Under the pieces are notes generated by a model. The model was not told the origin of the DNA. It saw nothing but the letters and a program-made list of their open reading frames with translations, and did no database searches. From positions 1 through 51,519 of the IMG/VR virus record IMGVR_UViG_3300040809_000756: 51,519 bases of DNA; one strand, given 5' to 3'. Source of the DNA: a virus. Both the position numbers and the translations under genes were made by a program. Shown here one piece after another: positions 38,749 to 50,780 of the stretch (positions are counted from its first letter, which is position 1; the number at the start of each line of letters is the position of its first letter).

Positions 38749-38762
38749 TTAGTTGTTTCCTG

Positions 38763-38790: not shown

Positions 38791-38794
38791 ATAA

Positions 38795-38819: not shown

Positions 38820-38825
38820 CAATTA

Positions 38826-39119
38826 TCACTCAACAATGTCGTTGTAAGTATTTTGAACTTTACCAACAAACTCTTGACGCTGTTCGGGAGTCAGAAGATT
38901 GTTGCGAACAAAGTTAATCAAAGTGAAAAGTCCAACGAGTTGCATTACACCATTGAACACAGGAATTGCATCCACAACCATCACAACCTCATGAATCATC
39001 AGTTGTGCAACAATTACAACAAAGAGAATAGTTGCAGAGATTCCAACTTTTTTGAGAACATCGTTGGTAACATTCTCATTGACGAAGGTCTTAATTTGTG
39101 CGATTTTGTCGTTCATCAT
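38826..39119 (-). CDS. CAAD/CURT1-like membrane protein
   Basis: 97 aa. Two hydrophobic segments, about residues 25-49 (GISATILFVVIVAQLMIHEV) and 55-72 (NGVMQLVGLFTLINFV), are followed by RNNLLTPEQRQEFVGKVQNT. That layout (amphipathic helix, two membrane helices, then RNLLTPE-R-EF-KVQ and an amphipathic end) is the CAAD domain of cyanobacterial aminoacyl-tRNA synthetases and CURT1 thylakoid curvature proteins. Expected in the thylakoid membrane of the host. It is a single gene between repeat copy 9 and a terminator; its leader holds a stable hairpin (39144-39158). Starts at Met1 or Met2 are both possible. Likely remodels host membranes or recruits host synthetases; inference. Confidence 0.75.
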   Translation of the reverse strand: MMNDKIAQIKTFVNENVTNDVLKKVGISATILFVVIVAQLMIHEVVMVVDAIPVFNGVMQLVGLFTLINFVRNNLLTPEQRQEFVGKVQNTYNDIVE

Positions 39120-39143
39120 TTCAAAAGTTTAATAGTTTTTGTG

Positions 39144-39158
39144 GGAGCAGTGTGCTCC
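39144..39158 (-). promoter_or_regulatory. Leader hairpin of the CAAD-like gene
   Basis: Perfect 6-bp stem GGAGCA/TGCTCC with a 3-nt loop, extendable with GTG/CAC outside. It lies just after the presumed start of transcription at repeat copy 9 and 25 nt before the ATG, so it could stabilise the RNA 5' end. Confidence 0.45.
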
Positions 39159-39161
39159 TCA

Positions 39162-39189
39162 CACTACTGGAACACTTTAAGGGGCTCAG
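39162..39189 (-). repeat. 28-bp intergenic element, copy 9
   Basis: Core GAGCCCCTTAAAGTGTTCC then AGTAGTGTG. The dam stop TGA (39186-39188) is inside it; the CAAD-like gene starts 43 nt downstream. Confidence 0.92.
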
Positions 39190-40004
39190 TAGACAGCAAT
39201 CAATTCATTTGCTTTCTTTCTACTTCCACCATTTGCTGCAATAGTTCTAGACACTTGAATTGGATAAATTGTAGCATTTTTGTATAGTTCTCTGGTGATG
39301 GAAACGTCATGATTAGATACAATCACTTTAATACCCTTTGCAGCAAGAGATTCTGCAAGTTGTGCTAGTTTAACCTGCTGGTCTGATGTGAACCCATCAG
39401 TCGCATAGCTTGTGAAGTTTGATGTATCAGATGCAGGAACATATGGTGGGTCAAAATAGACAACATCACCTGCTTCCAAATCTTCATAAAGAGATAAATC
39501 TTCAAATGAAAGTGATGTGAACCGCACCAATTGTTTGGTGAGGAAATACATCCTAAATTTCATCATCTCTTCAGATGGACAAGTTGGTTTTTCATATTTA
39601 CCAAAAGGAACATTAAATCCACCATTTTTATTGTATCTTGACAGTCCATTAAAGCAATGACGATTCAAATAGATGAATAATCTTGCTCTCTCTGTTGAAT
39701 CTGTTGATTGATTGAAGTGTTCTCTCAAATCAAGATATGACTCTTTAGTATTATTCTCTGGAATGAACAGTTCTTCACAATACTGGATGAAGCTATCGTC
39801 ATTTGGATTCACCAGATTCTGATAGATTGCCACCAAATCTTTATTCACATCGTTGAGAATGTATTGCTCTGCTGATGTGTTCAGTGCAACAGCAAGGCTC
39901 CCACCAAAGGGTTCACAATAACGCTTTGGACTACCAATATGGGGAGTAAGATGGGGCAGAACCCGTGTTTTGTTTCCTGCCCACTTCAAGAAGGTTTTAT
40001 TCAT
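39186..40004 (-). CDS. dam: DNA adenine methyltransferase (Dam, D12 class)
   Basis: 272 aa, the usual Dam length. Motif X/I region FLKWAGNKTRVLPHL and EPFGGSLAVALN bind S-adenosylmethionine; DPPY (185-188, in YFDPPYVPASDTSNF) is the catalytic motif IV; LNRHCFNGLSRYNKNGGFNV with PFGKY is typical of GATC-specific Dam and phage T4 Dam. It transfers methyl to adenine N6, expected at GATC. It overlaps the stop of the 467-aa gene by ATGA, so the two are coupled. GATC is frequent in this window, so the phage does not avoid the site; protection of phage DNA from host restriction is the likely role. Confidence 0.93.
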   Translation of the reverse strand: MNKTFLKWAGNKTRVLPHLTPHIGSPKRYCEPFGGSLAVALNTSAEQYILNDVNKDLVAIYQNLVNPNDDSFIQYCEELFIPENNTKESYLDLREHFNQSTDSTERARLFIYLNRHCFNGLSRYNKNGGFNVPFGKYEKPTCPSEEMMKFRMYFLTKQLVRFTSLSFEDLSLYEDLEAGDVVYFDPPYVPASDTSNFTSYATDGFTSDQQVKLAQLAESLAAKGIKVIVSNHDVSITRELYKNATIYPIQVSRTIAANGGSRKKANELIAVY

Positions 40005-41404
40005 GCAAAAGAAGAAATCAAGGGGTTTGACGATTCTTTAATTTCATCAACAATTTTTTTCATAATACTATACTTTTGATCTGGTGTCTTTCTCCCTTCA
40101 TTGAAGGCAATTTCTCCAAGATATTCTCTATCTTCGGGTGGAATTTGTTTCATAGAGCAATCAATATTGGAACAATCCATCATTCTTTCAATATATCCTA
40201 AAAACAAAGATACATATACCTCTTCTTGATTTTTTACTACCGATCTCTGATATCCTCTACCTTTTTGATTTGGCAGGTCTTTTAGTTCTTCTTCAGTTTC
40301 TGCAGTGAAAGAATAGTTTTTTAGATAGGTATGAAGTCCTTTAGACTCTAATGCCAACCACTGTTGCCCTGTCATTTCATATCCTTTCCAGGTATTTTTA
40401 TCAAAAAATTTACCTTTTCTTTTTTTACTCATAAAATCCAAAGGATTTATTTCAAATAATGCAGACCAATAATCTAAAGGATCTTTACTAACTTTACCAA
40501 ATTCAACATCAATAGATTTTAAAACTTTTTTCAAACTTTCATTACCAACACCATATTTTTTTGCCGACAGAGAAAGTGATTGGAAGTAACATCCTGCGTG
40601 AGGATTAGATTTATTAAGAATATTATCCAGTTTCAAACTATCTAACCAGACAATCTCTTCACGAAAATCTTCAATAGCATCAATCAATTCAAATTTACCC
40701 TTTTTCCAACACTTAAACAAATGCCTCAAAGCACTACTGAATCCTGCTTCAACAAAGTACTTATGTGATATTTTTTTCTTTAATCCAGTAAGATTTAGAA
40801 TACCTTGAGTTTTGCATTTTACATTATCCACCGACGATTGAGAATCAAATTTGTCATAGATTTCTTGATATTCACTCACACCACCATCACAATCTGGAGC
40901 CCAAAGATAAAAATGAAATACCAAATTTTCATTCGGAACCATTTTAGAATAATCTTCCTCTTGCTCAATCAACCAATAATATAAATCTCTTCTGCGATGA
41001 AAATTTATAAGTGCAAGTGCAAATTTAGGATAGTGTTTTACTACTTCCTCTAGAGTTGTTTTCTTTTTAAGTTCTTCTACATTTATTGCAATATGAACTG
41101 TATTTGCAATTCCTTTTCTATATCCATCTCTATGAGAATCAAATAAACTCTTTGCCCAACTTGTAAGGTGTCCATCACCACCCACAACTTCATACAATCG
41201 TTCTGACGGACCTTCATCAATCAAATAACCCGAATTTGATTCGGGATTTTTCTCAAATAAAAATGAAAGTGCTTCTTCCGCACTTAAAGATATTTCAAGA
41301 AAGTTATCCCATTTATCGGAGCGTTCGGGATATTGATTGTAAGTATTTTTAGCGGTATCTACAATTTTAGACACCAATTCTGTGATAGAAAATTGTTTTT
41401 TCAT
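40001..41404 (-). CDS. 467-aa orphan protein coupled to Dam
   Basis: I do not recognise this protein. It is soluble and Lys/Glu-rich with many aromatic residues, no membrane segment and no Walker or metal-binding motif I can point to. Conserved-looking stretches are EGPSERLYEVVGGDGHLTSW, ALINFHRRRDLYYWLIEQEE, FHFYLWAPDCDGG and MTGQQWLALESKGLHTYLKN. Its stop overlaps the dam ATG by 4 nt, and the two-gene unit has its own sigma70 promoter (41472-41500) and no 28-bp repeat at its head. AT-rich codon use is stronger than in neighbours, which hints at a recent acquisition. A restriction, anti-restriction or DNA-modification partner of Dam is possible but unproven. Confidence 0.75.
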   Translation of the reverse strand: MKKQFSITELVSKIVDTAKNTYNQYPERSDKWDNFLEISLSAEEALSFLFEKNPESNSGYLIDEGPSERLYEVVGGDGHLTSWAKSLFDSHRDGYRKGIANTVHIAINVEELKKKTTLEEVVKHYPKFALALINFHRRRDLYYWLIEQEEDYSKMVPNENLVFHFYLWAPDCDGGVSEYQEIYDKFDSQSSVDNVKCKTQGILNLTGLKKKISHKYFVEAGFSSALRHLFKCWKKGKFELIDAIEDFREEIVWLDSLKLDNILNKSNPHAGCYFQSLSLSAKKYGVGNESLKKVLKSIDVEFGKVSKDPLDYWSALFEINPLDFMSKKRKGKFFDKNTWKGYEMTGQQWLALESKGLHTYLKNYSFTAETEEELKDLPNQKGRGYQRSVVKNQEEVYVSLFLGYIERMMDCSNIDCSMKQIPPEDREYLGEIAFNEGRKTPDQKYSIMKKIVDEIKESSNPLISSFA

Positions 41405-41471
41405 AATTACCTGTTTTAGTTGTTACTACACCAGTCCAGAAATCCTTTATGATGTATTGGCAGTGTTACTT

Positions 41472-41500
41472 AGTATAAACTATTTTCAGTTAGTTGTCAA
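41472..41500 (-). promoter_or_regulatory. Sigma70-type promoter for the 467-aa/dam unit
   Basis: Minus strand TTGACA, 17-nt spacer, TATACT. The -35 box lies inside the last codons and before the stop of the nuclease-like gene. The start of transcription would be about 60 nt before the ATG at 41404. Confidence 0.78.
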
Positions 41501-41971
41501 CTGTTGACGATATGTTTCTTCAGTAACGATTTCAACATCAGGAGCAATAAGTTTCATTTTGTTTTGAAACTCTTCACTAAGATAGTATTCCTTCAAAGTC
41601 CAACCAGATTCGCCACAGAGAACAATAACTCCACTACTGTAGCCATACTTATCAATGGCATCCTGAAGTTTAAGGAACTCAAAGGGAATTTTCTCTTCAG
41701 CAGTTCCATCAATCGCCTGATACTTGAAACTATCTAATCGACCTCCTTGATGATTAGAAGTCCATCGTTTTGCTTTTGGTTTTTTCTTGTGTGCTTCTCC
41801 ACCAAGAAGAACATCAACAATGTGTTGCTTCTTTGTGTTGAATTGAGTACCAACTACTGTTTGTGGATAGACTGGTCCATCAAAAGATTCATAGAGAAAC
41901 TTTTCAATAGAATCCTCATTGACCTTGCCTGTGGTAGTGTCACGAGGAGCATGATTGTCGCGATTAGACAT
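41486..41971 (-). CDS. PD-(D/E)XK-like nuclease
   Basis: 161 aa. A helix with Glu (VNEDSIEKFLYESF) precedes HIVDVLLGG (D53) and, after 26 residues, LDSFKYQAIDGTAEEKIPFE (S81-F-K83, then TAEEK). D...(S/E)xK spaced like this, followed by a GTAEEK-P-E helix, is the core of PD-(D/E)XK nucleases I recall from phages (usually D...SxKxQ and SGTAEQKVPFE). VIVLCGESGW is the following strand. It may cut host or competing DNA, or act as a repair/resolvase enzyme. It starts after repeat copy 10. Confidence 0.68.
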   Translation of the reverse strand: MSNRDNHAPRDTTTGKVNEDSIEKFLYESFDGPVYPQTVVGTQFNTKKQHIVDVLLGGEAHKKKPKAKRWTSNHQGGRLDSFKYQAIDGTAEEKIPFEFLKLQDAIDKYGYSSGVIVLCGESGWTLKEYYLSEEFQNKMKLIAPDVEIVTEETYRQQLTTN

Positions 41972-42008
41972 AATCAGTAAGCGAAAGTCAATGCAAGTTT
42001 GTTTCTTA

Positions 42009-42036
42009 CACTACTACAACACTTTAAGTGGCTCAG
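42009..42036 (-). repeat. 28-bp intergenic element, copy 10
   Basis: Core GAGCCACTTAAAGTGTTG then TAGTAGTGTAAG. The 72-aa gene stops 5 nt before it; the nuclease-like gene starts 38 nt after it. Confidence 0.92.
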
Positions 42037-42041
42037 TATTA

Positions 42042-42260
42042 TCAATCAATCGGAAGTTTAGCAACGCTCTTACCTCTACGATGCTTTTGAATAAACTTGC
42101 GGGCAGATTCCTCCGTTGTGCACACTTTAAGCTGCTTGCCATTGTGAATAATCATCAATCGGTTACAATAAGGAACTGCTGCATAGATTCCACCATCAAC
42201 AATAAATCCATTTTGGGGTGGGTTTGAGTCAAGAATGCTTGAATTAGTTGGTTGGTTCAT
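42042..42260 (-). CDS. Conserved 72-aa protein
   Basis: SSILDSNPPQNGFIVDGGIY, AAVPYCNRLMIIHNGKQLKV, CTTEESARKFIQKHRRGKSV. Beta strands then a basic helix (ARKFIQKHRRGK), a small DNA- or RNA-binding-like shape. I recall this kind of protein (VCTTEESARKFI) in cyanomyophages. Upstream are two hairpins (42291-42304 and 42331-42350) that separate it from the helicase gene. Function unknown. Confidence 0.72.
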   Translation of the reverse strand: MNQPTNSSILDSNPPQNGFIVDGGIYAAVPYCNRLMIIHNGKQLKVCTTEESARKFIQKHRRGKSVAKLPID

Positions 42261-42290
42261 GATACTTTCAAAAAAATCGTGATTTTTGTT

Positions 42291-42304
42291 GGGGCGGATG
42301 CCCC
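42291..42304 (-). other. GC-rich hairpin in the 72-aa gene leader
   Basis: Minus strand GGGGCATCCGCCCC folds into a 5-bp stem (GGGGC/GCCCC) with a 4-nt loop about 30 nt before the ATG, followed by AACAAAAATC. It could be a second terminator arm or a leader attenuator. Confidence 0.45.
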
Positions 42305-42330
42305 ATAGGGTCTGTGCAGTGAAATTGCAG

Positions 42331-42350
42331 AAAAATCGGGGTTTTACCCC
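42331..42350 (-). terminator. Rho-independent terminator after the helicase
   Basis: Minus strand GGGGT-AAA-ACCCC then GATTTTT, 28 nt after the helicase stop. A perfect 5-bp stem with a T5 tail. Confidence 0.78.
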
Positions 42351-42378
42351 TGATGGCCACTTGAGTCTTGGGTGAGAC

Positions 42379-43569
42379 TCACCGCCTCACCACAGAATCT
42401 AGCATTTCACCCTTTTCAAAAACAGCATCAACAACATTCTGCAATGCTCGCTCAGTAGCAATACCAACCTGAGAATAAACAGGTACAACACAGAGACCAA
42501 ACTTCTTGGTGTCGCTACCCAAACGCAGCACACGGCCGATAGTCTGAGTCATCTCAATCACATCCATATTGCGAAGGAAAACAACAGTCTCCAGTTCACT
42601 CACGTTGATACCCTCAGAGAGAATAGAGCGGTGAAGAACAACAAATTTCTTGCTGGGATCTTTACCCCAAGCATTGAGAGTGTTGAAGAACTCCTCTCGG
42701 TTAGCTTTCTTGCCGTCAATTACAGCACCAGTCTTGCTAGTGATGTAGAGATAAGAGTAACCGCGTTGTTGTAATTCAGAAGCAAAATCAGTATGACCCA
42801 TCAGGTTCATCAGTTGCTTGCTAGTCTTAACACAAACAAGAATCTTCTTGGTGTCAGTGTCATCAATCGTGTCCAAAACATTGGCACAATCAATGTTAGG
42901 ATTGATCTGTTTTGCCTTGTGAATGTCAAACTTCTTTGCCTGAATCTTAGGAGGAATGATGTAACCACCCTCCACCAGTTCAGGTGCAGAAACGCGACAA
43001 ATAATGTCACCATAAACCTCAGCATCGTTCATGCCAGGTTTGTTGATAGTGACAGAAGTCTTGCGGGTTGCAGTAAAGAAGTAGCAACGTTCTGCATCAC
43101 CAGAGAAGAACTCTGTAGGAGCAAAGAAGTTACGCTTTACAGAATTGTGTGCTTCATCGAAATAAATGGTGTTCACTTCAATGTCTGCTTGACGTACACG
43201 ATCAAGAGAATTGTAGGTCGTGAAGATAATGCAAGCATCACCAGCCGTGCGGGCAACATTAGCAAACATATGAATTTGCTTAGGGTTGGTGGTGCTGAAG
43301 TGATGAGTTTCACCACTGTGAACGTGCATCACATGAACATTCTTGGCGTCGATAACCTCAAGAAATTCGCTAGAGAGTTGCTCTGCAAGCAGAATGCGAG
43401 GGCAAACAACAACAATGGTGGTAGCACCAATGTTGTCAATCTGTGCCTTAGCATCAGTAATCATTGTGAGAGTCTTGCCTGCACCAGTAGGCATAATCAA
43501 CTGCCCCTTCATATGGGCAACCATTGCATCAACACCGCGTTGCTGATGTGGGCGAAGAAGTGGAATCAT
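42379..43569 (-). CDS. SF2 DNA/RNA helicase (UvsW / type III Res-like)
   Basis: 396 aa. Motif I is MPTGAGKT (26-33), Ia is VVCPRILLAEQL, II is DEAH (138-141 in IYFDEAHNS), III is FTAT (165-168), and VI is QTIGRVLRLGS near 345. Q-motif-like RPHQQRGVDAM stands at the N-terminus. It is a compact ATP-driven helicase/translocase, related to restriction-enzyme Res subunits and phage recombination helicases such as UvsW. Probably acts in replication fork or recombination-intermediate remodelling. It starts after repeat copy 11 and ends at a terminator, so it forms its own transcription unit. Confidence 0.9.
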   Translation of the reverse strand: MIPLLRPHQQRGVDAMVAHMKGQLIMPTGAGKTLTMITDAKAQIDNIGATTIVVVCPRILLAEQLSSEFLEVIDAKNVHVMHVHSGETHHFSTTNPKQIHMFANVARTAGDACIIFTTYNSLDRVRQADIEVNTIYFDEAHNSVKRNFFAPTEFFSGDAERCYFFTATRKTSVTINKPGMNDAEVYGDIICRVSAPELVEGGYIIPPKIQAKKFDIHKAKQINPNIDCANVLDTIDDTDTKKILVCVKTSKQLMNLMGHTDFASELQQRGYSYLYITSKTGAVIDGKKANREEFFNTLNAWGKDPSKKFVVLHRSILSEGINVSELETVVFLRNMDVIEMTQTIGRVLRLGSDTKKFGLCVVPVYSQVGIATERALQNVVDAVFEKGEMLDSVVRR

Positions 43570-43584
43570 TTAATCAATCGCTTA

Positions 43585-43612
43585 TACTATAGGGACACTT
43601 TAAGTGGCTCAG
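43585..43612 (-). repeat. 28-bp intergenic element, copy 11
   Basis: Core GAGCCACTTAAAGTGTCCC then TATAGTATAAG, the copy with the best -10-like hexamer (TATAGT). The 75-aa gene stops 6 nt before it; the helicase starts 15 nt after it. Confidence 0.92.
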
Positions 43613-43618
43613 TTGTTA

Positions 43619-43846
43619 TCAACCACCGAACATTTCATCGAAGAGATCGCCCATCTGATCCATTTCCAGTTTGCGATCCATTGCATTTCGCATTTCAATC
43701 AGAGCAATCTGCTTTGCTTTTAGTTTATCCATTTCAACATTCAAGGCGTGCAGTTTGTTGTTAATCTCAATGCGATCCAATCCATCAACAGTGGTAACAG
43801 TGATGGGAAATCCTTGGGAGATGATAGTTTTTTCAGAGATGACCAT
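43619..43846 (-). CDS. 75-aa coiled-coil protein
   Basis: MVISEKTIISQGFPITVTTV, RIEINNKLHALNVEMDKLKA, KQIALIEMRNAMDRKLEMDQ and MGDLFDEMFGG. A long central heptad-like helix, with a short beta-type N-terminus, suggests a dimeric coiled coil. It lies between the basic CTS-bearing gene and the helicase. Function unknown. Confidence 0.68.
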   Translation of the reverse strand: MVISEKTIISQGFPITVTTVDGLDRIEINNKLHALNVEMDKLKAKQIALIEMRNAMDRKLEMDQMGDLFDEMFGG

Positions 43847-43861
43847 TAAGTGTTCCGTATC

Positions 43862-43889
43862 TACTACTGGGACACTTTAAGTGGCTCAG
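43862..43889 (-). repeat. 28-bp intergenic element, copy 12
   Basis: Core GAGCCACTTAAAGTGTCCC then AGTAGTAGATAC. The 198-aa basic gene stops 2 nt before it; the 75-aa gene starts 15 nt after it. Confidence 0.92.
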
Positions 43890-43891
43890 TT

Positions 43892-44488
43892 TCAGCTCTC
43901 GTCGCCAGATGATGTGTACTTGTTCTTCAGTTCACTCTCTTTCTTTTTGCCTGTTGATTGAAGAACCAAATCTCTCAGTTTTCTTCTACCTTCTCTCTTA
44001 ATTCTTCTCTTCTCATCTCTAGTGTATTCTCCCCTTGTCATCTTTACCTGCTTCTCTCTTTCAGCAGTTGGTTTCTTCTTAGAAAGGAGTTTACTTCCTT
44101 CTTTATCTAAATCTCGTGATTTTGCTTTTGAAGATGTTGATGCAGTTCCTCCAGATGCCTTTTCCGCTGCTCTTTTTCTCGCTGCAGCTCTTCTTTCTGC
44201 CTTTACCTTATCTGCATATGATTGTTTAACCTCAGCAGAACCTCTTTCCTGTGTTGGTTGTTGCTGTCTTTCAGAACTTGATCTTTGGGTTCCAATATCT
44301 TTGCGGTCACTATATCTCTTTGCTGGTTCTGTTTTACCACCACCAACTCTCTTTCTTCTTCTAGTTTCTGCATCAGACAGTCTCCTGTCAGATCCTACTC
44401 TTCCACCTTCCCCAGTTTTTCTAATTTGGGAAGAACCCATTACATCAGCATCATATGCTTCGGCACAAAATTGAGAGAACGTCTTCAT
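43892..44488 (-). CDS. Very basic protein with capsid-targeting-like N-terminus
   Basis: 198 aa, about a third Lys/Arg. It starts MKTFSQFCAEAYDAD, which resembles the T4 capsid-targeting sequence (MKTYQEFIAEA) including a gp21-type cut after the Glu, although Cys replaces the usual Leu/Ile. The rest is Arg/Lys/Ser/Glu-rich and probably disordered (SDAETRRRKRVGGGKTEP, VKAERRAAARKRAAEKASGG, EYTRDEKRRIKREGRRKLRD). A terminator upstream (44538-44568) and a late promoter (GATAAATA at 44511-44518) set it apart from its early-type neighbours, as expected for a virion protein. I infer an internal head protein that coats DNA or is injected into the host. Confidence 0.72.
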   Translation of the reverse strand: MKTFSQFCAEAYDADVMGSSQIRKTGEGGRVGSDRRLSDAETRRRKRVGGGKTEPAKRYSDRKDIGTQRSSSERQQQPTQERGSAEVKQSYADKVKAERRAAARKRAAEKASGGTASTSSKAKSRDLDKEGSKLLSKKKPTAEREKQVKMTRGEYTRDEKRRIKREGRRKLRDLVLQSTGKKKESELKNKYTSSGDES

Positions 44489-44510
44489 CAGAATAAGAGA
44501 GATTTCTTAT

Positions 44511-44518
44511 TATTTATC
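44511..44518 (-). promoter_or_regulatory. Late promoter of the basic CTS-bearing protein
   Basis: Minus strand GATAAATA, one base from the T4 late consensus TATAAATA, 22 nt before the ATG at 44488 and just after a terminator. It is one of only two late-type boxes seen in the right block. Confidence 0.7.
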
Positions 44519-44537
44519 AATCCTAATTCATCACAAG

Positions 44538-44568
44538 CAAAAAAGAGAGGGACTGTGGACAGCCCCTC
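44538..44568 (-). terminator. Rho-independent terminator
   Basis: Minus strand GAGGGGCTG-tcca-CAGTCCCTC (9 bp with one G-T pair) followed by TCTTTTTTG. It lies 7 nt after the stop of the 64-aa gene and insulates the late gene behind it. Confidence 0.88.
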
Positions 44569-44575
44569 AACTGGC

Positions 44576-44770
44576 TCAATCTTCAGTTTTCTTTTCTTTC
44601 CTCGGACTTGCAACAAGTCCCTCATCATAAAAATACTTAACTCGTTCACGTCGTGCTACAACAAGCATATCATATTGCTCTTGTTGTTCTTTAGTGTACT
44701 TGAAGTTTTGCTTCCTCCAAGCATCACGAAGTTCAAACATGTGAGGCAGAACATTAACAGTGTCGGTCAT
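44576..44770 (-). CDS. 64-aa conserved protein
   Basis: MTDTVNVLPHMFELRDAWRK, QNFKYTKEQQEQYDMLVVAR and RERVKYFYDEGLVASPRKEK. Mainly helical, with a basic centre and a charged end. I recall similar proteins in cyanomyophages. The stop is followed by TGAGCC, the first bases of the 28-bp element, without the rest. Starts after repeat copy 13. Function unknown. Confidence 0.72.
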   Translation of the reverse strand: MTDTVNVLPHMFELRDAWRKQNFKYTKEQQEQYDMLVVARRERVKYFYDEGLVASPRKEKKTED

Positions 44771-44786
44771 TGTTGTTTGGTGATTG

Positions 44787-44814
44787 TAATACTAGAACAG
44801 TTTAAGTGGCTCAG
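44787..44814 (-). repeat. 28-bp intergenic element, copy 13
   Basis: Core GAGCCACTTAAACTGTTC then TAGTATTACAATC. The TGA of the 51-aa gene (44811-44813) is inside it; the 64-aa gene starts 16 nt after it. C replaces the usual G in the box, as in copy 16. Confidence 0.9.
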
Positions 44815-44966
44815 TTATCTTCTTTGTTGGTATTCACCCGAACGTTGTAAGGACTGTTGAAAAACCTACGGAAAGCAGTAACAACAATAACAAGCGCGGA
44901 AACCACGCCAACAAAACCAAGGATGGTGGTAGCATCACCAGTGAAAGTGTAGGTGTCAGGAGTCAT
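44811..44966 (-). CDS. 51-aa single-pass membrane protein
   Basis: MTPDTYTFTGDATTILGFVG, VVSALVIVVTAFRRFFNSPY and a polar tail (NVRVNTNKEDN). One hydrophobic segment at residues 15-32 followed by basic FRR, so the N-terminus probably faces the lumen/periplasm. The ATG at 44966 overlaps the stop of the 48-aa gene by ATGA. The shape resembles low-molecular-weight subunits of photosynthetic or respiratory complexes, but no match to a named subunit can be claimed. Confidence 0.7.
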   Translation of the reverse strand: MTPDTYTFTGDATTILGFVGVVSALVIVVTAFRRFFNSPYNVRVNTNKEDN

Positions 44967-45109
44967 TTTGCGTAGATACAGTTAGGATTGGAAACTTGTT
45001 CGGCACAGATTTTATCATATGCCTCAAGCATTTTACTATCTCGGTTTGCAAGAAAGGCATTATACATCAGAATGCCTATGAATGCAAGAAAGATGTAAGA
45101 GGTTTTCAT
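44963..45109 (-). CDS. 48-aa membrane or exported protein
   Basis: MKTSYIFLAFIGILMYNAFL, ANRDSKMLEAYDKICAEQVS and a Cys-containing end (NPNCIYAK). A hydrophobic N-terminus preceded by Lys and followed by a polar helix with two Cys could be a signal anchor or signal peptide; the Cys pair could form a disulfide outside the cytoplasm. Both ends overlap neighbours by 4 nt (ATGA). Function unknown. Confidence 0.68.
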   Translation of the reverse strand: MKTSYIFLAFIGILMYNAFLANRDSKMLEAYDKICAEQVSNPNCIYAK

Positions 45110-45309
45110 TTCAGTTCGATACGATCAAAGAGACACATTGCAAGGTCGAAATAGAGATCATCATCCATTTCACCCATCGTAGCATCAAGTGCCTCACACA
45201 CCAGTTGTTGCATCATAGAGGCATAAGTCTCATTTGCATAGATGTGTTCCAAAACATCATTCTTCAGAGCATCAGCAATGTTAGAAACTGTTTGATTGGA
45301 GAGTGGCAT
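45106..45309 (-). CDS. 67-aa acidic helical protein
   Basis: MPLSNQTVSNIADALKNDVL, EHIYANETYASMMQQLVCEA, LDATMGEMDDDLYFDLAMCL. Acidic, amphipathic helices. I use the ATG at 45309 because a longer start (45342) would overlap the 45-aa gene by 32 nt. Its stop overlaps the next ATG by 4 nt. I recall the pattern VSNIADAL--DVIEYI--DERY in cyanophage proteins; function unknown. Confidence 0.7.
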   Translation of the reverse strand: MPLSNQTVSNIADALKNDVLEHIYANETYASMMQQLVCEALDATMGEMDDDLYFDLAMCLFDRIELK

Positions 45310-45310
45310 T

Positions 45311-45448
45311 TTAGTAATCGTAGTTTCCGTTGATGTAATCATTCAGATTGAAATCGCTAGCATCTTCATAGAGTTCGGCAAAATCATCATCGGAGATGTA
45401 ATCAAAGTTTTCAAGCTCTTCAATTTGAATGTCGTCGAAAGGATTCAT
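45311..45448 (-). CDS. 45-aa highly acidic protein
   Basis: MNPFDDIQIEELENFDYISD, DDFAELYEDASDFNLNDYIN, then GNYDY. Fifteen Asp/Glu and no basic residue; it could be a DNA mimic or a protein-binding peptide. It starts 18 nt after repeat copy 14 and ends 1 nt before the 67-aa gene, heading a chain of four overlapping microgenes. Function unknown. Confidence 0.68.
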   Translation of the reverse strand: MNPFDDIQIEELENFDYISDDDFAELYEDASDFNLNDYINGNYDY

Positions 45449-45466
45449 AGTTTCGTTTGTTCCTTA

Positions 45467-45494
45467 CACTGTTGGTACACTTTAAGTGGCTCAG
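45467..45494 (-). repeat. 28-bp intergenic element, copy 14
   Basis: Core GAGCCACTTAAAGTGTACC then AACAGTGTAAGG. The TGA of the 83-aa gene (45491-45493) is inside it. The hexamer region is CAGTGT here, the weakest -10-like match of all. Confidence 0.92.
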
Positions 45495-45742
45495 TTTACC
45501 TTATCGTAGACTGATTCCCTAGACTTAACAAATTTTAAGTCTTTCCATGATTGATTGTAGCAGAGAATCAGGGTTCTTTCATTTCGATGGAATCCAGAAT
45601 GTACGAGATCTTCTTCAGGTTTTGGTTTTACATTGATTTCAATGGTTAGATAATCTTTGCATTTAAAGTAAATCCAACCTTCAATGTCAACACCAACACT
45701 CTGTTTCCACAGAACATAGTCATTTACTTTTGGTTCATACAT
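45491..45742 (-). CDS. 83-aa conserved protein
   Basis: MYEPKVNDYVLWKQSVGVDI, EGWIYFKCKDYLTIEINVKP, then HRNERTLILCYNQSWKDLKF. Beta-rich; the KVNDYV-W-(EGW-YFK) start is one I recall in cyanomyophages. I use the ATG at 45742, because the longer frame only gains a TTG start four codons earlier. It overlaps the end of the 106-aa gene by 8 nt. Possibly an SH3-like or OB-like small fold; function unknown. Confidence 0.72.
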   Translation of the reverse strand: MYEPKVNDYVLWKQSVGVDIEGWIYFKCKDYLTIEINVKPKPEEDLVHSGFHRNERTLILCYNQSWKDLKFVKSRESVYDKVN

Positions 45743-46055
45743 ATGCAAGTTCAAGTGGGGTTAGTTTTGGTTTCATAGCTGAGTATGGAGAAGTATTACC
45801 AAACTCTACCGAATCTCCACACTTGGAGGAGTTAATAGGGGCGTGATAGGATTCGGTTTTGGTGTTGAAGAATCCCCAAATACTTCGAGCACTAGCACCA
45901 TCGTTGTAAACAAATTGATAATGATTGCGAATCCAAATAGAAATGATGTTGCGTTTAAATTCTTCAACTTCATAACTGTAACCCTCTGGTGCTGTGTGCT
46001 TGAATGATTCAGGTAAGGAAAGAATCAACGATTCCGATTTCTTCGTTCGCTTCAT
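45735..46055 (-). CDS. 106-aa protein
   Basis: KSESLILSLPESFKHTAPEG, YSYEVEEFKRNIISIWIRNH, YQFVYNDGASARSIWGFFNT. Alternating beta strands, soluble, basic N-terminus. The start at 46055 lies inside the preceding gene (47-nt overlap, another frame). The middle (FVYN-GA-ARSIWGF) recurs in phage proteins as I remember; no name exists. Part of a three-gene unit with its own sigma70 promoter. Confidence 0.7.
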   Translation of the reverse strand: MKRTKKSESLILSLPESFKHTAPEGYSYEVEEFKRNIISIWIRNHYQFVYNDGASARSIWGFFNTKTESYHAPINSSKCGDSVEFGNTSPYSAMKPKLTPLELAYV

Positions 46056-46254
46056 TACTTAGTTCCAAACGTGTTGCTCGATAAACATTTTCCTGAATCC
46101 GATCATCATAAGAACTCTCACATTCATCACGCCAATCAATCAAAACATCGTGACATTGATTGTCATTTTCAGCAACAACTGCAATCAATCCTCCATACTC
46201 AGAACTTGGAAAAGGAACCCAGTAATTAACAAGATACAAATACTTTTGTGCCAT
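46009..46254 (-). CDS. 81-aa protein, first gene of an early unit
   Basis: MAQKYLYLVNYWVPFPSSEY, GGLIAVVAENDNQCHDVLID, WRDECESSYDDRIQENVYRA. A compact alpha/beta domain with an acidic centre; the first strand YLYLVNYWVPFPSSEYGG is a conserved-looking opening. It follows a sigma70 promoter (46278-46306) and overlaps the next gene by 47 nt. No function known. Confidence 0.72.
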   Translation of the reverse strand: MAQKYLYLVNYWVPFPSSEYGGLIAVVAENDNQCHDVLIDWRDECESSYDDRIQENVYRATRLELSNEANEEIGIVDSFLT

Positions 46255-46277
46255 TATCGAATAAAAATTACTTAATG

Positions 46278-46306
46278 ATTATATCAGAGATTGTAAAATT
46301 CTTCAA
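46278..46306 (-). promoter_or_regulatory. Sigma70-type promoter for the 81-aa gene
   Basis: Minus strand TTGAAG, 17-nt spacer, TATAAT. The -10 follows directly on the stop codon (CTC TGA TATAAT) of the 43-aa gene and lies 23 nt before the ATG at 46254. Confidence 0.75.
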
Positions 46307-46415
46307 GATAATAGTCGCAGGTGACTTCTAGTTTTGAAGATTCTTCTTCGATCATTTTCCAAAATTCAATTTCAGAATCTGTCGGTTGTTCTTTGTTCAA
46401 ATTTTCTTTCATCAT
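46284..46415 (-). CDS. 43-aa acidic protein
   Basis: MMKENLNKEQPTDSEIEFWK, MIEEESSKLEVTCDYYLEEF, then YNL. A single acidic amphipathic helix is likely. The pattern FWKMIEEES-KL-VT-DYYLEEF is one I recall in cyanophages, which supports a real gene. Met1 and Met2 are equally likely starts. It lies between a terminator/hairpin (46431-46478) and the promoter for the next unit. Confidence 0.65.
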   Translation of the reverse strand: MMKENLNKEQPTDSEIEFWKMIEEESSKLEVTCDYYLEEFYNL

Positions 46416-46430
46416 TTGGTCTAATTTTCT

Positions 46431-46478
46431 TAAAATAAAAACCTAGGATTAGTGACGTTTCTGACACAATTCCTAGGT
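46431..46478 (-). terminator. Long-loop hairpin with U tract
   Basis: Minus strand ACCTAGGA, 22-nt loop, TCCTAGGT, then TTTTATTTTA. The 8-bp outer stem is perfect and the loop has a smaller GTG/CAC stem. It lies between repeat copy 15 and the 43-aa gene, so it would stop transcription coming from cp12 or from the repeat itself, acting as terminator or attenuator. Confidence 0.7.
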
Positions 46479-46515
46479 ATATCATGCAAGCAAGAAGAAT
46501 GCTCATTGAACTCTA

Positions 46516-46543
46516 CACAATTAGAACACTTTAAGTGGCTCAG
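46516..46543 (-). repeat. 28-bp intergenic element, copy 15
   Basis: Core GAGCCACTTAAAGTGTTC then TAATTGTGTAGAG. The TGA of cp12 (46540-46542) is inside it. A hairpin (46431-46478) lies between it and the 43-aa gene. Confidence 0.9.
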
Positions 46544-46752
46544 TCATCATAAACTCTACATTCAAGTGCATCAGGATTTGCATCACAATAAAGTTCTAAT
46601 GGGGTTGGATCGTGGTCATCATTTGGATGATTCTTTTTGTATTCTTTAAGAGCTTCTAATTCCTCTTCAGTATGCCTGCGAGACTGTGCAGAAATCATTG
46701 GATTGTCAAGGATAGATTGATCCTTTTCAATATGTTTGTCGATGTTTTCCAT
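46540..46752 (-). CDS. cp12: CP12-like Calvin-cycle inhibitor
   Basis: 70 aa. The end PLELYCDANPDALECRVYDD with C56 and C65 is the C-terminal CP12 signature (host form: PLE-FCDENP-A-ECR-YED), the disulfide loop that docks on GAPDH. The N-terminal half is helical and acidic (EEELEALKEYKKNHPNDDHD) but lacks the AWD-VEEL motif and the first Cys pair of full CP12. CP12 shuts off the Calvin cycle by tying GAPDH to phosphoribulokinase; phage versions are known to redirect host carbon to the pentose phosphate pathway. A late-type box (AATAAATA, 46771-46778) precedes it. Partial motif set lowers certainty of full function. Confidence 0.82.
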   Translation of the reverse strand: MENIDKHIEKDQSILDNPMISAQSRRHTEEELEALKEYKKNHPNDDHDPTPLELYCDANPDALECRVYDD

Positions 46753-46770
46753 TTGTCTTTTTGTTTCTTA

Positions 46771-46778
46771 TATTTATT
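46771..46778 (-). promoter_or_regulatory. Late-type promoter before cp12
   Basis: Minus strand AATAAATA followed by TAAG, 18 nt before the ATG at 46752. Matches the box seen before structural genes. Confidence 0.55.
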
Positions 46779-46783
46779 TTTAA

Positions 46784-47005
46784 TCAACCACCTTTTTCTT
46801 TCATACTTCGCACCAAATACTCCGTAAACCTTTCCATTCTTGAAGGACAAACTGCCTGAGGATATTGATTGATTGCATTTTTGAGTGCAACCAATTCATT
46901 CCACTCTTCTTCTGAAAGTTCTGTTTTGCCGCTAGGAGGAGTAATTGTCATGGTTGTGTCAGAATACCCTAACATTCTATCATTATTTAATGCAGAACTT
47001 AGCAT
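46784..47005 (-). CDS. Conserved small protein
   Basis: The core is TPPSGKTELSEEEWNELVAL, KNAINQYPQAVCPSRMERFT, EYLVRSMKEKGG, an acidic helix followed by a helical tail that I recall in cyanomyophages beginning at MTI-PPSGK. Starts at 47005 (73 aa) and at 46951 (55 aa, MTITPPSG) are both possible; neither has a good Shine-Dalgarno. Function unknown. Confidence 0.65.
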   Translation of the reverse strand: MLSSALNNDRMLGYSDTTMTITPPSGKTELSEEEWNELVALKNAINQYPQAVCPSRMERFTEYLVRSMKEKGG

Positions 47006-47039
47006 TCTTAATGTTTTCTTTGGGATTGATTAAAATATC

Positions 47040-47264
47040 TTAATCAGTAAAGAATGGCCCAAAGTTTCCACTGCTGCCTGGTTTTCTGTCTTCAAGCATA
47101 TCTAAAATGTTTTCAAACTTTTTCAGTTTTTCAATATCATAAAGAACCTTTGAGATTTGTTGAATTACCAAAGGTTTTTCATTTGTTGCAGCTGATTTGA
47201 TTGCAGACCTGAGTGCAGATTCTGCATCAAGTAAATGGTCAAGTGTATTCTTTGAGAGTGTCAT
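47040..47264 (-). CDS. 74-aa helical protein
   Basis: MTLSKNTLDHLLDAESALRS, AIKSAATNEKPLVIQQISKV, LYDIEKLKKFENILDMLEDR, then a Gly/Phe end (SSGNFGPFFTD). Helical hairpin-like. The ATG at 47264 shares its A with the stop of the 42-aa gene (TAATG), so translation is coupled. No family known. Confidence 0.7.
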   Translation of the reverse strand: MTLSKNTLDHLLDAESALRSAIKSAATNEKPLVIQQISKVLYDIEKLKKFENILDMLEDRKPGSSGNFGPFFTD

Positions 47265-47392
47265 TAACTTTCAGTTTTCTGTTTGTTTAGTTCTACATTG
47301 TGCCAATAGATCTCAAGTGCTTTCACAGATTCGGGAGTTTCTTCCCATTCCCAAGTGTCACCTTTGGTACTTACATATGTACGTTTTGCCAT
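47264..47392 (-). CDS. 42-aa protein, first gene of an early unit
   Basis: MAKRTYVSTKGDTWEWEETP, ESVKALEIYWHNVELNKQKT, ES. A short strand pair and a helix; the KGDTWEWEETPE-V opening recurs in cyanophage microproteins as I remember. Follows a promoter with an extended -10 (47414-47443). Its stop TAA overlaps the next ATG by one base. Function unknown. Confidence 0.68.
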   Translation of the reverse strand: MAKRTYVSTKGDTWEWEETPESVKALEIYWHNVELNKQKTES

Positions 47393-47413
47393 AGTTTTTC
47401 AGTAGTTAATTTT

Positions 47414-47443
47414 ATTATACCACAAGTTAGAGTTTTCCGCCAA
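47414..47443 (-). promoter_or_regulatory. Sigma70-type promoter with extended -10
   Basis: Minus strand TTGGCG, 18-nt spacer, TATAAT with TGG directly before it (extended -10). It lies within the end of the 68-aa gene and about 22 nt before the ATG at 47392. Confidence 0.65.
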
Positions 47444-47633
47444 CTGTGCCTTCATGTTTTACAGTTTCAGGCCAACCTTCTTGAAGTCCTTTCAAATAAA
47501 ATCGAGTTGCCCTAACACACTGTTCTTCATCAAGTGCAGTGATAAGAGGTTTACCTCCTTTGTCGTAAGAATGCCACAATCCATATTTTTTCTCTTCAAC
47601 TCGAAAGGCATCATCAATCCACTTAAATTCCAT
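47427..47633 (-). CDS. 68-aa conserved protein
   Basis: MEFKWIDDAFRVEEKKYGLW, HSYDKGGKPLITALDEEQCV, RATRFYLKGLQEGWPETVKH. Beta hairpin plus a helix; the W-SYDK-GK-LITALDEEQC pattern is one I recall in cyanophages. It overlaps the end of the 54-aa gene by 11 nt. The -35 box of the next promoter lies in its last codons. Function unknown. Confidence 0.72.
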   Translation of the reverse strand: MEFKWIDDAFRVEEKKYGLWHSYDKGGKPLITALDEEQCVRATRFYLKGLQEGWPETVKHEGTVGGKL

Positions 47634-47787
47634 CAGTTTTCCTCAAGTTTGAAAGTTGGCGTTTCACTTCCACTTCAACTCCTACAAGTTTACTATGTAG
47701 AAACTGTTCATATTCATTCCCATCAAAGAGATTGCAGAGGTTATGAATCTGAATGAGTGCCAAATGAAGTTTCATTTCATCGTTCAT
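47623..47787 (-). CDS. 54-aa helical protein
   Basis: MNDEMKLHLALIQIHNLCNL, FDGNEYEQFLHSKLVGVEVE, VKRQLSNLRKTDGI. Amphipathic helices. Upstream genes overlap its ATG at 47787 (stops at 47784 and 47777), and it overlaps the 68-aa gene. The QIHNLCNLFDGNEYE-FL-SKL-VE-E-RQL pattern is typical of small phage helical proteins. Function unknown. Confidence 0.7.
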   Translation of the reverse strand: MNDEMKLHLALIQIHNLCNLFDGNEYEQFLHSKLVGVEVEVKRQLSNLRKTDGI

Positions 47788-47965
47788 TTTTTACCCATGC
47801 CCTTTCTCTTTCTTCCAGAAGTTTTGTCATTGCTGCTAGTGTTTCGAGTGGAATCCATGCGGGTTCCTCTTTTGCAAACTGGACTTGCACTTCTGTTACT
47901 TTTCGGTTGAGGCTTTTGCTCCAGGTTTCTCTTGTGAGTTTTACGTGTGCGATTGGGTTTTCCAT
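47777..47965 (-). CDS. 62-aa protein overlapping the 112-aa gene
   Basis: MENPIAHVKLTRETWSKSLN, RKVTEVQVQFAKEEPAWIPL, ETLAAMTKLLEERERAWVKN. It has a natural composition and strand-helix pattern, which favours a real gene in this frame. It lies in a different frame from the C-terminal half of the 112-aa gene for 182 bases. The start ATG at 47965 follows GATTACAAAG; an upstream ATG at 47977 adds four residues. One of the two overlapping frames may be the result of a frameshift. Confidence 0.6.
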   Translation of the reverse strand: MENPIAHVKLTRETWSKSLNRKVTEVQVQFAKEEPAWIPLETLAAMTKLLEERERAWVKNER

Positions 47966-48122
47966 CTTTGTAATCAAGTTTAATTTCTTTTGGCTTCAGT
48001 TTATGCCTCTCTATGTATTTGTCAAGATGTTCCTGACATGAGAACCAACAGACTTTACCATCATCAGTGTGTTCCAATCGGAACCCAAAGGTTTCATAAG
48101 GAAACAAATTAACCTCCTTCAT
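47784..48122 (-). CDS. 112-aa protein with basic tail
   Basis: The N-terminal ~55 residues (MKEVNLFPYETFGFRLEHTD, DGKVCWFSCQEHLDKYIERH, KLKPKEIKLDYKDG) form a coherent domain I recall from cyanophages. The rest is a Lys/Arg/Ser tail of low complexity (RTRKTHKRNLEQKPQPKSNR, KTSGRKRKGMGKK) that overlaps the 62-aa gene in another frame. The ATG at 48122 overlaps the previous stop by 4 nt (ATGA). The tail may be a run-on after loss of an earlier stop or a real nucleic-acid-binding tail. Confidence 0.62.
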   Translation of the reverse strand: MKEVNLFPYETFGFRLEHTDDGKVCWFSCQEHLDKYIERHKLKPKEIKLDYKDGKPNRTRKTHKRNLEQKPQPKSNRSASPVCKRGTRMDSTRNTSSNDKTSGRKRKGMGKK

Positions 48123-48568
48123 TTGTGCTCCCAAAAATCATCCCAATCTTTCTTGGTAGATGCAATATCAAGTCTAGCACGTTGATTATAGTATTCTGCT
48201 TCACGCAGATTATACTCATAACACTTTTGCTTTTCTTGGTCTGATGCTGCTTTGTCGCACATCGAGTTCAGTTCTTCTTCAGTGTAGTTTGTATTAGTAT
48301 TGAACTGAATGATACTCCTATCAGGATAACTGTAATCTCCTTTTATATGGTGAGAATGGCCAGTAAACATTTGTATCATTGCTGATACTTTTTCCAGTTT
48401 CTTTTTATGATAGTCTTGCCAAGTCTTAAGTTCATCAATCAAATCATTATAAAATATTAGAGCAGAATAGTTATCATCATCAAGATATTCTGCGATTGCG
48501 TCACCTATGTTGTCTTTCATTCGAATACGATGAAGATCAACATCACCATTACTAATTTCCTTTGTCAT
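48119..48568 (-). CDS. 149-aa conserved protein
   Basis: MTKEISNGDVDLHRIRMKDN, IGDAIAEYLDDDNYSALIFY, NDLIDELKTWQDYHKKKLEK then TEEELNSMCDKAASDQEKQK. Mostly helical. I chose the ATG at 48568, because the longer frame (48613) overlaps the 55-aa gene by 62 nt and adds non-conserved residues. It overlaps the neighbouring genes by 4-17 nt. The two Cys (in SMCDKAASDQEKQKCYEY) might pair. Function unknown. Confidence 0.7.
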   Translation of the reverse strand: MTKEISNGDVDLHRIRMKDNIGDAIAEYLDDDNYSALIFYNDLIDELKTWQDYHKKKLEKVSAMIQMFTGHSHHIKGDYSYPDRSIIQFNTNTNYTEEELNSMCDKAASDQEKQKCYEYNLREAEYYNQRARLDIASTKKDWDDFWEHK

Positions 48569-48719
48569 TGAGCTTCTCCTCAAGTTCTTCAATTCTAACA
48601 TAAAGATCTTCAATTAGTGAAGTGAGATTGTAAAAGTTGACTTTACCAAACTCATAGTATCCATTGTCTGCTGTAATTTCACTGAAGATTTCTCCCCATT
48701 TATGTGTTCTTTCAGTCAT
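48552..48719 (-). CDS. 55-aa protein
   Basis: MTERTHKWGEIFSEITADNG, YYEFGKVNFYNLTSLIEDLY, VRIEELEEKLNDKGN. Short strands, then an acidic C-terminal coil. The ATG at 48719 overlaps the upstream stop (TGATG), and it overlaps the 149-aa gene start by 17 nt. Function unknown. Confidence 0.66.
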   Translation of the reverse strand: MTERTHKWGEIFSEITADNGYYEFGKVNFYNLTSLIEDLYVRIEELEEKLNDKGN

Positions 48720-48847
48720 CACAAGTGTCCGTAGTTTTGTTGGTAATAAAGGAATCTTTGCATTGATGGTCTAACACCTAGACTCTCACAACATCTCAAA
48801 TAAGAGATGAATTCATACCAAGGTGCTGTAGGATCAGTGTCCGCCAT
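48719..48847 (-). CDS. 42-aa protein
   Basis: MADTDPTAPWYEFISYLRCC, ESLGVRPSMQRFLYYQQNYG, HL. Aromatic-rich, with a CC pair. It overlaps the 69-aa gene by 14 nt at the start and the next ATG at the end (TGATG). Such PWYEFI-YL-RC-LG--PS-QRF patterns occur in cyanophage microproteins as I remember them. Function unknown. Confidence 0.65.
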   Translation of the reverse strand: MADTDPTAPWYEFISYLRCCESLGVRPSMQRFLYYQQNYGHL

Positions 48848-49043
48848 ATCTACACCTCATTGTATGAAGATACTTAAGAACTTCTTCTCGAACTTCCATC
48901 AGTTCGTTGTAACACTTTTGATTGTGTGCACATTGGCGAAGTGATGAATCTGGTTTGTGAACAGATTCGATAAAGATGTCAAGTCCCCTCAACATCTTAT
49001 CTTCTTTAGATTCACCGTCAGGAATACTGTTCTGGTCTTTCAT
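48834..49043 (-). CDS. 69-aa protein
   Basis: MKDQNSIPDGESKEDKMLRG, LDIFIESVHKPDSSLRQCAH, NQKCYNELMEVREEVLKYLH. Helical with three Cys and an end TMRCRYGGH. Starts with a 4-nt overlap with the 53-aa gene and overlaps the 42-aa gene by 14 nt. Function unknown. Confidence 0.67.
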   Translation of the reverse strand: MKDQNSIPDGESKEDKMLRGLDIFIESVHKPDSSLRQCAHNQKCYNELMEVREEVLKYLHTMRCRYGGH

Positions 49044-49201
49044 TTGGATTCTAGTTCAATGGGACAATCTGAGTATTCCTTGAGAGTTTGTAGAATCTCT
49101 TGCTTTTCTGATTGGGTGATAGAATTGTTATCAAACATTCTGTTTGCAATTCTATTGAAATCAGAGCAAGAAAGTTCTAGAGACAGCATTAACTCTAACA
49201 T
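49040..49201 (-). CDS. 53-aa helical protein
   Basis: MLELMLSLELSCSDFNRIAN, RMFDNNSITQSEKQEILQTL, KEYSDCPIELESK. Helical. The ribosome site (TGGAGG) before its ATG is enclosed in a small stem (AATCC/GGATT at 49203-49216), which could tune translation. First of a chain of seven overlapping microgenes running down to about 47,620. Function unknown. Confidence 0.67.
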   Translation of the reverse strand: MLELMLSLELSCSDFNRIANRMFDNNSITQSEKQEILQTLKEYSDCPIELESK

Positions 49202-49222
49202 GGCAATCCTCCAGGATTACAT

Positions 49223-49417
49223 CTATTTAACAACCTCCCAATGGTCATCAGATCCCTCACTCATCCAGAACCAGTATTTGCCACTAATGGATGCAAGAAA
49301 CATCTTCCCATCTTTACGATTCTCCACTCTACATGTATGAAGGCTATTCATCATGTTAGCAAAACGATTTTTTGCCTTTGATGACTTCGGTTTGACGCAA
49401 ATTAGATCAGTTTTCAT
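49223..49417 (-). CDS. 64-aa conserved protein
   Basis: MKTDLICVKPKSSKAKNRFA, NMMNSLHTCRVENRKDGKMF, LASISGKYWFWMSEGSDDHW. A basic helix (KSSKAKNRFANMM) then four strands; the KAKNRFAN-M-S-H-C-VE-R pattern is a cyanophage microprotein type I recall. It follows repeat copy 16. Function unknown. Confidence 0.74.
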   Translation of the reverse strand: MKTDLICVKPKSSKAKNRFANMMNSLHTCRVENRKDGKMFLASISGKYWFWMSEGSDDHWEVVK

Positions 49418-49432
49418 TTGGGTGGTGGAATC

Positions 49433-49460
49433 TAATACCAGAACAGTTTAAGTGGCTCAG
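49433..49460 (-). repeat. 28-bp intergenic element, copy 16
   Basis: Core GAGCCACTTAAACTGTTC then TGGTATTAGATTC. The TGA of the DUF262 gene (49457-49459) is inside it. Like copy 13 it has C for G in the box. Confidence 0.9.
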
Positions 49461-50662
49461 TTTTCAAAACACCTGGTGAGAGTAGACAAATTATTAGTGT
49501 TAATACCAACAACTTTATCAATAATTTCACTCAACACAGTATGACGTGCTTTGAGATTTTCTGCACTCATGCCATTGCAGCACTCTTTGAATGTCTTTTC
49601 ATCTTCTCCACAAGTGAAAGTGCGATTTTTGTCACGATATGCTTCTTCATGAAGTTCAACTGCTTCAACAACTTGATCATAAGTTTCAAGTCCATTGCAC
49701 ATCATCCAGTACAGATTTTGCACTGCGGATGTGCGATTCAGAGACTTTTCTTCCAAAATTTCTTCTTGGTGCATCAGAGTGTTGAAGTCCATCAATTCAA
49801 CAAATTTGTCAGCGTAGAAGTCTGCATCTTCATCCACTGGGAAATCACTCTTATAGAGTTTATTCTTAGTGGTCTGACTCACACCACTAATCTTGGTTTC
49901 GTTCAGGATTGGGTCATGGTCAATGGCTTGAACTACCATATCGAGACAGTCTACAATCCATTCTTCACCACGAAGACGAGAACGGTGGTCCTTGAAGAGT
50001 TTAGCAAGGAGAGAACAAACCTCATCAGCAATATTACGAACATACCCAGCCCACACAGTTGAGTATGCATTGCGGAGTTCTTGTCCGTTAAGAGGAACAC
50101 CACTGTTCACATTTTGGAACACCTCAGACATACCTTCAAGGGTAATTTGAGTGTAGAGGCTAATTGCAGCTTGACGTTCTTCCAAAATCTCACGGACTCG
50201 TTCTGGTAGGTCGGAAAACTTTTGCTTTCCTTTCCGAACGGTGAAAGAAGAAATGGTGCCATTCAATTCATCGGTAATATATTCATACTTTCCTTCAGGA
50301 ATGGTGTAAGTGTCTTCAAACAGAGACTTAATGAAGCACATACGATTATTTCCATCAAGAATAACATACTTGTATCCTTCACTAAGGAAGCTCCTAAAGA
50401 ACTTGTATGTTTCGCTATCAACTTCACCTGCGGTTTCAAGACGACTGATACAAGATTTTACATCAACAAGAACATAAGTTCCTTCAACCCTATTCATTAG
50501 GATTGATTGGAAGAACTTCTTCCTATCTTCTGCTTTCCATGCGATAGGACGTTGGAATTGACGAGGTGCATTAAATGCTGCAAACTTTTGGAGCAAATAA
50601 GCATAGTCCAGGAGGTTAATACGTTCCTTCAGTGGGACAAGAAAATTTTGTTTGATTTTCAT
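49457..50662 (-). CDS. DUF262 (GmrSD/ParB-like) protein
   Basis: 401 aa. DUF262 signatures are in place: APRQFQRPIAWKAEDRKKFF (33-52; QR-x-x-x-W), YVILDGNNRMCFIKSLFE (99-115; DG-N-R, the catalytic-like motif), and VFQNVNSGVPLNGQELRNAY (181-200). This is the ParB-like nucleotidase fold found in GmrS of type IV restriction systems and in many defence and anti-defence proteins. No DUF1524 HNH nuclease half is fused, so it is a stand-alone DUF262 protein that might bind or hydrolyse nucleotides. The leader lacks a Shine-Dalgarno and has an A7/T11 pair. It starts after repeat copy 17. Confidence 0.85.
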   Translation of the reverse strand: MKIKQNFLVPLKERINLLDYAYLLQKFAAFNAPRQFQRPIAWKAEDRKKFFQSILMNRVEGTYVLVDVKSCISRLETAGEVDSETYKFFRSFLSEGYKYVILDGNNRMCFIKSLFEDTYTIPEGKYEYITDELNGTISSFTVRKGKQKFSDLPERVREILEERQAAISLYTQITLEGMSEVFQNVNSGVPLNGQELRNAYSTVWAGYVRNIADEVCSLLAKLFKDHRSRLRGEEWIVDCLDMVVQAIDHDPILNETKISGVSQTTKNKLYKSDFPVDEDADFYADKFVELMDFNTLMHQEEILEEKSLNRTSAVQNLYWMMCNGLETYDQVVEAVELHEEAYRDKNRTFTCGEDEKTFKECCNGMSAENLKARHTVLSEIIDKVVGINTNNLSTLTRCFEN

Positions 50663-50771: not shown

Positions 50772-50780
50772 TGAGATTTG

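Follow-up and report, generated by a model that had tools for sequence, protein, structure and literature searches.

A family of highly basic cyanophage proteins with a capsid-targeting-like start, probably carried in the virus particle with the DNA

Few viruses in the ocean are as abundant as the T4-like cyanophages. A gene for a highly basic protein lies in a virus record of 51,519 bases (the whole stretch analyzed, hereafter the window), a fragment of a T4-like cyanomyovirus, a virus of marine cyanobacteria. The minus-strand gene order comprises small early genes and a helicase, followed by gp25, gp6, gp7, gp8, and so on, and is the same as that of S-SM2 at 43-91 kb. A preliminary description of the sequence had read the product as an internal head protein that binds DNA or is injected and is expressed from its own late promoter inside the early region. 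In the literature searched, the terms "capsid targeting sequence" and "cyanophage" co-occurred only in a T4 review mentioning cyanophages once.

The gene (43892..44488, minus strand, stop codon included) encodes 198 amino acids and was identified by its open reading frame, purifying selection, and relatives in IMG/VR. Its dN/dS was 0.10 when compared with a 98% relative and 0.29 with an 84% relative, and a codon comparison with two close relatives revealed zero amino-acid changes in codons 1-13; the frame is therefore coding and under purifying selection on the minus strand. An antisense ORF of 150 aa (44022-44474, plus strand) was regarded as a shadow frame, because selection acts on the minus frame. 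The protein starts with MKTFSQFCAEA (given as MKTFSQFCAEAYDADV... and, elsewhere, MKTFSQFCAEAYDADVMGSSQIRK...) and, as had been noted, is rich in Arg and Lys (27 and 28 residues) and highly basic (pI 10.3, net charge about +24.5). The earlier description of its body as probably disordered held in part: the AlphaFold model was of low confidence overall (mean pLDDT 64, pTM 0.23) and for this reason too weak for a fold search, but charged helices were predicted at residues 85-111 and 157-179, the latter a C-terminal helix (43952..44020, minus strand) in blocks with pLDDT 79-89.

The first ten codons (44459..44488, minus strand) encode MKTFSQFCAE, a propeptide resembling a T4 capsid-targeting sequence (CTS), on the evidence of its match to T4 IPIII and its conservation in 69 relatives. 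BLAST aligned it with T4 IPIII over residues 1-11 only, with 7/11 positions identical to MKTYQEFIAEA, and it conforms to the T4-spaced N-terminal capsid-targeting pattern, with the same spacing as in IPII and IPIII. All 69 distinct family members begin with an MKTF-, MKTL-, MKSF-, MKNF-, or MRTF-like start after start-site correction, so that the capsid-targeting start named in the preliminary description is both present and conserved. ORFs with this spacing are expected at about 0.08 per genome by chance, versus three in the complete S-SM2 genome. An apparent subgroup without the CTS (L053, L086, and L011) was a wrong-start artefact, the true starts lying further upstream and carrying the CTS.

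Based on site conservation, the prohead protease is predicted to cut between Glu10 and Ala11 (44456..44461, minus strand), leaving the mature N-terminus AYDADVMGSS. P1 was Glu at 70/70 sites and P1' was mostly Ala or Val. Since the Met-to-Glu distance varies from 9 to 13 across the family, it is the cut site rather than an exact tag length that has been kept. The T4 prohead protease follows the rule L/I-x-E (PMC9026906). The Cys at P3, which had been called unusual, does depart from this rule but is not unusual within the family, where P3 was I at 20 sites, M at 12, V at 11, L at 9, C at 9, and F at 9. Candidate LTE/T and IAE/Q sites are also present in the N-termini of cyanophage gp23. The gene for gp21 was absent from the 51.5-kb fragment, and a gp21-type protease is annotated in the relatives S-SM2, S-SM1, S-SCSM1, and S-SZBM1.

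The early-type surroundings of the gene (helicase, many small ORFs) were verified, as were the terminator and the late box ahead of it. An intrinsic terminator with a 9-bp stem, GAGGGGCTGTCCACAGTCCCTC-TCTTTTTT (44547..44568, minus strand), insulates the gene against the early unit that lies upstream; six terminator sites were found in the region versus 2.9 expected. The nearest upstream neighbour (44576..44770, minus strand) encodes a 64-aa protein of phrog_3262 and occupies the same position next to the S-SM2 relative, immediately upstream. The late promoter box GATAAATA (44511..44518, minus strand), corresponding to the cyanomyovirus late promoter consensus NATAAATA (PMC2984593), begins 29 nt ahead of the ATG, and the chance of a late box in such an upstream stretch is about 1.2%. 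In addition, 17 near-identical copies of an early-type element, ACTGAGCC(A/C)CTTAAAGTG(TNCCAGTAGTGTAAG), with the palindromic core CACTTAAAGTG, sit between the small early genes at 33492-50772 of the window in gene sense on the minus strand. One copy (43873..43890, minus strand) precedes the next gene (43846-43619), and none stands in front of the basic gene despite the 17 copies nearby. The terminator, the gene's own late box, and the lack of an early-type repeat before it make the basic gene look, from its sequence, like a late unit set within an early block. In T4, synthesis of the internal proteins takes place early as well. The repeat itself occurred in 0-1 copies in S-SM2, S-SM1, S-SCSM1, S-CREM2, and S-SZBM1, with exact full-length matches in only seven IMG/VR contigs, and is a candidate lineage-specific early promoter or operator.

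In the annotated collection, tblastn recovered ten records of the family, all from cyanophages or marine single-cell virus contigs, of which about six are isolate phages. Among 144 relatives in IMG/VR, 80 loci were read; the comparisons cover 69 distinct members. True homologues include S-SM2 SSM2_065, SynMITS9220M01_053, P-TIM68 AIR93418, and S-B05 QCW23008, each annotated as a hypothetical protein and about 50-66% identical over the first ~85 residues; they differ in their C-terminal ends, which in the family as a whole are of several unrelated types. Profile searches of Pfam, PHROG, and PDB with the protein and a 20-member alignment gave no convincing match, weak Pfam matches to NES_C_h, XH, and SVIP resembled low-complexity matches, and C-terminal pieces searched separately matched solely within the same family. 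The family is thus cyanophage-restricted and previously undescribed, and no host origin is indicated, because the bacterial genome contigs scanned contained no relative. Every complete member is basic (pI 10.1-10.8). The conserved basic core, delimited by alignment column counts and invariant columns at residues 12-112 (44153..44455, minus strand), follows the pattern YDxxVMGSSQIRKTGEGGR...RKDIGxQR...QQPxxERGSAEVKQSYADKVKAER, and because certain Gly, Pro, Asp, and Arg residues are invariant in it, it is not a generic polycation.

Late expression of the family is indicated by promoter sequence. In 57/69 distinct members a late box is located directly upstream, at -15 to -48. Each of the remaining 12 comes immediately after a 63-aa ORF, with the late box of that ORF 215-243 nt upstream, in a two-gene late operon. 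The three members with corrected starts carry an unrelated insert of 20-100 aa before the conserved core and retain both tag and late box, and in L063, L069, and L070 two CTS genes appear as one fused chain keeping the first tag only. Judging from these arrangements, the tag is modular and survives inserts and gene fusion that remodel the body, which is what a loading signal used once per polypeptide should look like. A second, very basic family with a CTS (MKTFQEFFSEAIEQQTQTSYGSG..., MKTFQEFFSEA..., 181 aa, pI about 11) was observed directly downstream of the basic gene in L042, L045, L046, and L078, and it is this protein that appears joined to the basic one in the fused chains of L063, L069, and L070.

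The link between such a tag and presence in the virion was examined using published proteomes of S-CREM2, S-SM1, S-SCSM1, and S-SZBM1, which are from whole virions and do not resolve location in the head. None of these four phages had a relative of the basic protein in tblastn searches. In S-CREM2, the strict T4-spaced pattern occurred in 4/219 genes, all four encoding virion proteins (Fisher p=0.003), and across the four proteomes 7/9 annotated genes with the pattern were virion-detected (p=0.0003; counting each orthologue group once, p=0.002); these p-values are indicative, because the pattern, although based on the T4 spacing, was fixed when some of the S-CREM2 sequences were already known. 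The strict matches were SAM hydrolase gp6, gp13, the APH-like kinase gp14, and the cytidylyltransferase gp154, and a slightly wider pattern added gp136, likewise virion-detected, for a total of 5/5 (virion proteins according to PMC10665884, Table 3). The two misses form one orthologue group (SSCSM1_30 and SSZBM1_191, start MK(T/S)FK.F.SES), and the tag is therefore not a perfect predictor of virion presence. The window itself contains a second CTS-like start, MKSFKEFLSESVTISGDFNGNLY..., at 1296-1613 (minus strand) within a longer ORF (1296-1736); it belongs to this same orthologue group, which was undetected in the corresponding virion proteomes.

The cytidylyltransferase/NMNAT family (T4-GC190, SSM2_161, SSCSM1_91, S-CREM2 gp154) resembles the basic protein in its MKSFFQFLxEA-like start, found in 80/80 environmental copies, and in a late box at about -30, found in 79/80. 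It has been repeatedly reported in virions, namely those of S-SM1 (PMC3037559), S-SCSM1 (PMC9602691), S-SZBM1 (PMC9146016), and S-CREM2 (PMC10665884). NMNAT is a folded enzyme that is near-universal in cyanomyoviruses, whereas the basic-protein family is disordered or helical and accessory.

The closest known counterparts are the T4 internal proteins IPII and IPIII, which share the 10-residue CTS with identical spacing (MKTYQEFIAE/A versus MKTFSQFCAE/A). T4 IPIII has 193 aa compared with 198 aa here, and both are basic and accessory. In T4, ipI, ipII, and ipIII are dispersed between genes for non-structural products in the neighbourhood of denV, e, and the tRNAs, and the basic gene likewise lies in an early region. 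BLAST detected no similarity to T4 IPIII after residue 11. The basic protein also differs in its much greater basicity (pI 10.3, against 9.3-9.5 for IPII/IPIII and 8.9-9.5 for T4 internal proteins), in having Arg as frequent as Lys, in having Cys rather than Ile at P3, and in its own late box within 48 nt, whereas the same search pattern picked up no such box before T4 ipII or ipIII. In T4, propeptides of about 10 residues are sufficient for packaging of internal proteins, with the CTS acting as a head-core signal (PMC9026906), lysines of internal proteins contact DNA phosphates (PMC3012670), and IPI and IPIII counter host defences after injection (PMC9391042).

The reading as an internal head protein is supported because the family as a whole conserves the tag with its Glu site as well as the late promoter and because the tag is linked to virion detection in cyanophage proteomes, in addition to the analogy with T4. 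We consider it likely that the basic protein is an accessory T4-type internal head protein, which would be targeted to the core, cut after Glu10, packaged with the DNA, and probably ejected; its carriage in the particle with the DNA is, on the sequence evidence, probable. Unlikely in comparison is a role in head assembly only, with the protein forming part of the prohead core or scaffold, as T4 gp67/gp68 do, entering the core through the same N-terminus and being mostly degraded or expelled at maturation. Core proteins do have both gp21 sites and affinity for the core in common (PMC9026906), and the predicted charged helices at 85-111 and 157-179 could assemble, but the family is patchy, with ten records (about six isolates) against roughly 460 cyanophage records for NMNAT, whereas core parts are universal, and no run of repeated L/I-x-E sites was noticed by eye in the conserved core.

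It is also very improbable that the protein is virion-borne but outside the head interior, with the MKxFxxF start marking cyanophage virion proteins in general or proteins that attach to the tail. The proteomes, including those that report NMNAT and the S-CREM2 cargo, are of whole virions and not of heads, which leaves room for such a tag; against it, the T4 head CTS, a head-core signal, is matched residue by residue together with a Glu cut site, and the enrichment is on enzymes (SAM hydrolase, kinase, NMNAT) and not on tail parts. Extreme basicity would suit a late nucleic-acid-binding protein that never enters the virion and whose start is merely CTS-like; even so, start, Glu site, and late box are conserved together in 69 members, some of which have a rearranged body, and we give this explanation very little weight.

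On the internal-head-protein reading, the gene would be transcribed late in infection from its own late promoter by means of the phage late sigma factor, and residues 1-10 would act as a capsid-targeting sequence binding the prohead core. The prohead protease would then cleave after Glu10, as suggested by conservation of the site, and the mature Arg/Lys-rich chain might be held on the packaged DNA by its positive charge and conserved Gly/Pro/Asp motifs, by analogy with T4. On the same analogy, the mature chain would probably enter the host with the genome, where it could act early by protecting or organising the incoming DNA or by blocking a host enzyme, which is the least certain step. A broader proposal, which we regard as possible but rather doubtful, is that M-K-x-F-x-x-F-(hydrophobic)-x-E is a cyanomyovirus head-loading code for ejected effectors (NMNAT, SAM hydrolase, kinase, and possibly Cas9), and that the Arg/Lys-rich family is a histone-like cargo coating the incoming genome and acting in the first minutes, for example against host nucleases. 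If the tag is such a packaging code, proteins that enter the host could be picked out directly from sequence, the recurrent presence of NMNAT and SAM hydrolase in cyanophage virions would be explained, and a defined family of DNA-associated cargo would become available to test.

Related starts were observed at two other loci. In S-CREM2 (L182), an apparent operon gp15-gp14-gp13-gp12 (7704-13331, minus strand) has all four products virion-detected, with starts including MNFSEFNES, VKRFDAFLTE, and MKDLHSFLTE; the Cas9 gp12 carries LRFASFMAEA after a 16-aa extension and is possibly a packaged phage Cas9. In S-SM2, SSM2_108 (L089 41376-41804, plus strand) has a CTS start followed by PTNSVGNGGYTSAGGQTVAGYD, almost identical to the N-terminus predicted for mature gp23 of S-SM2 itself (PTNAVGNGGYTSSGGQTVAGFD), and thus appears to duplicate the N-arm of the major capsid protein.
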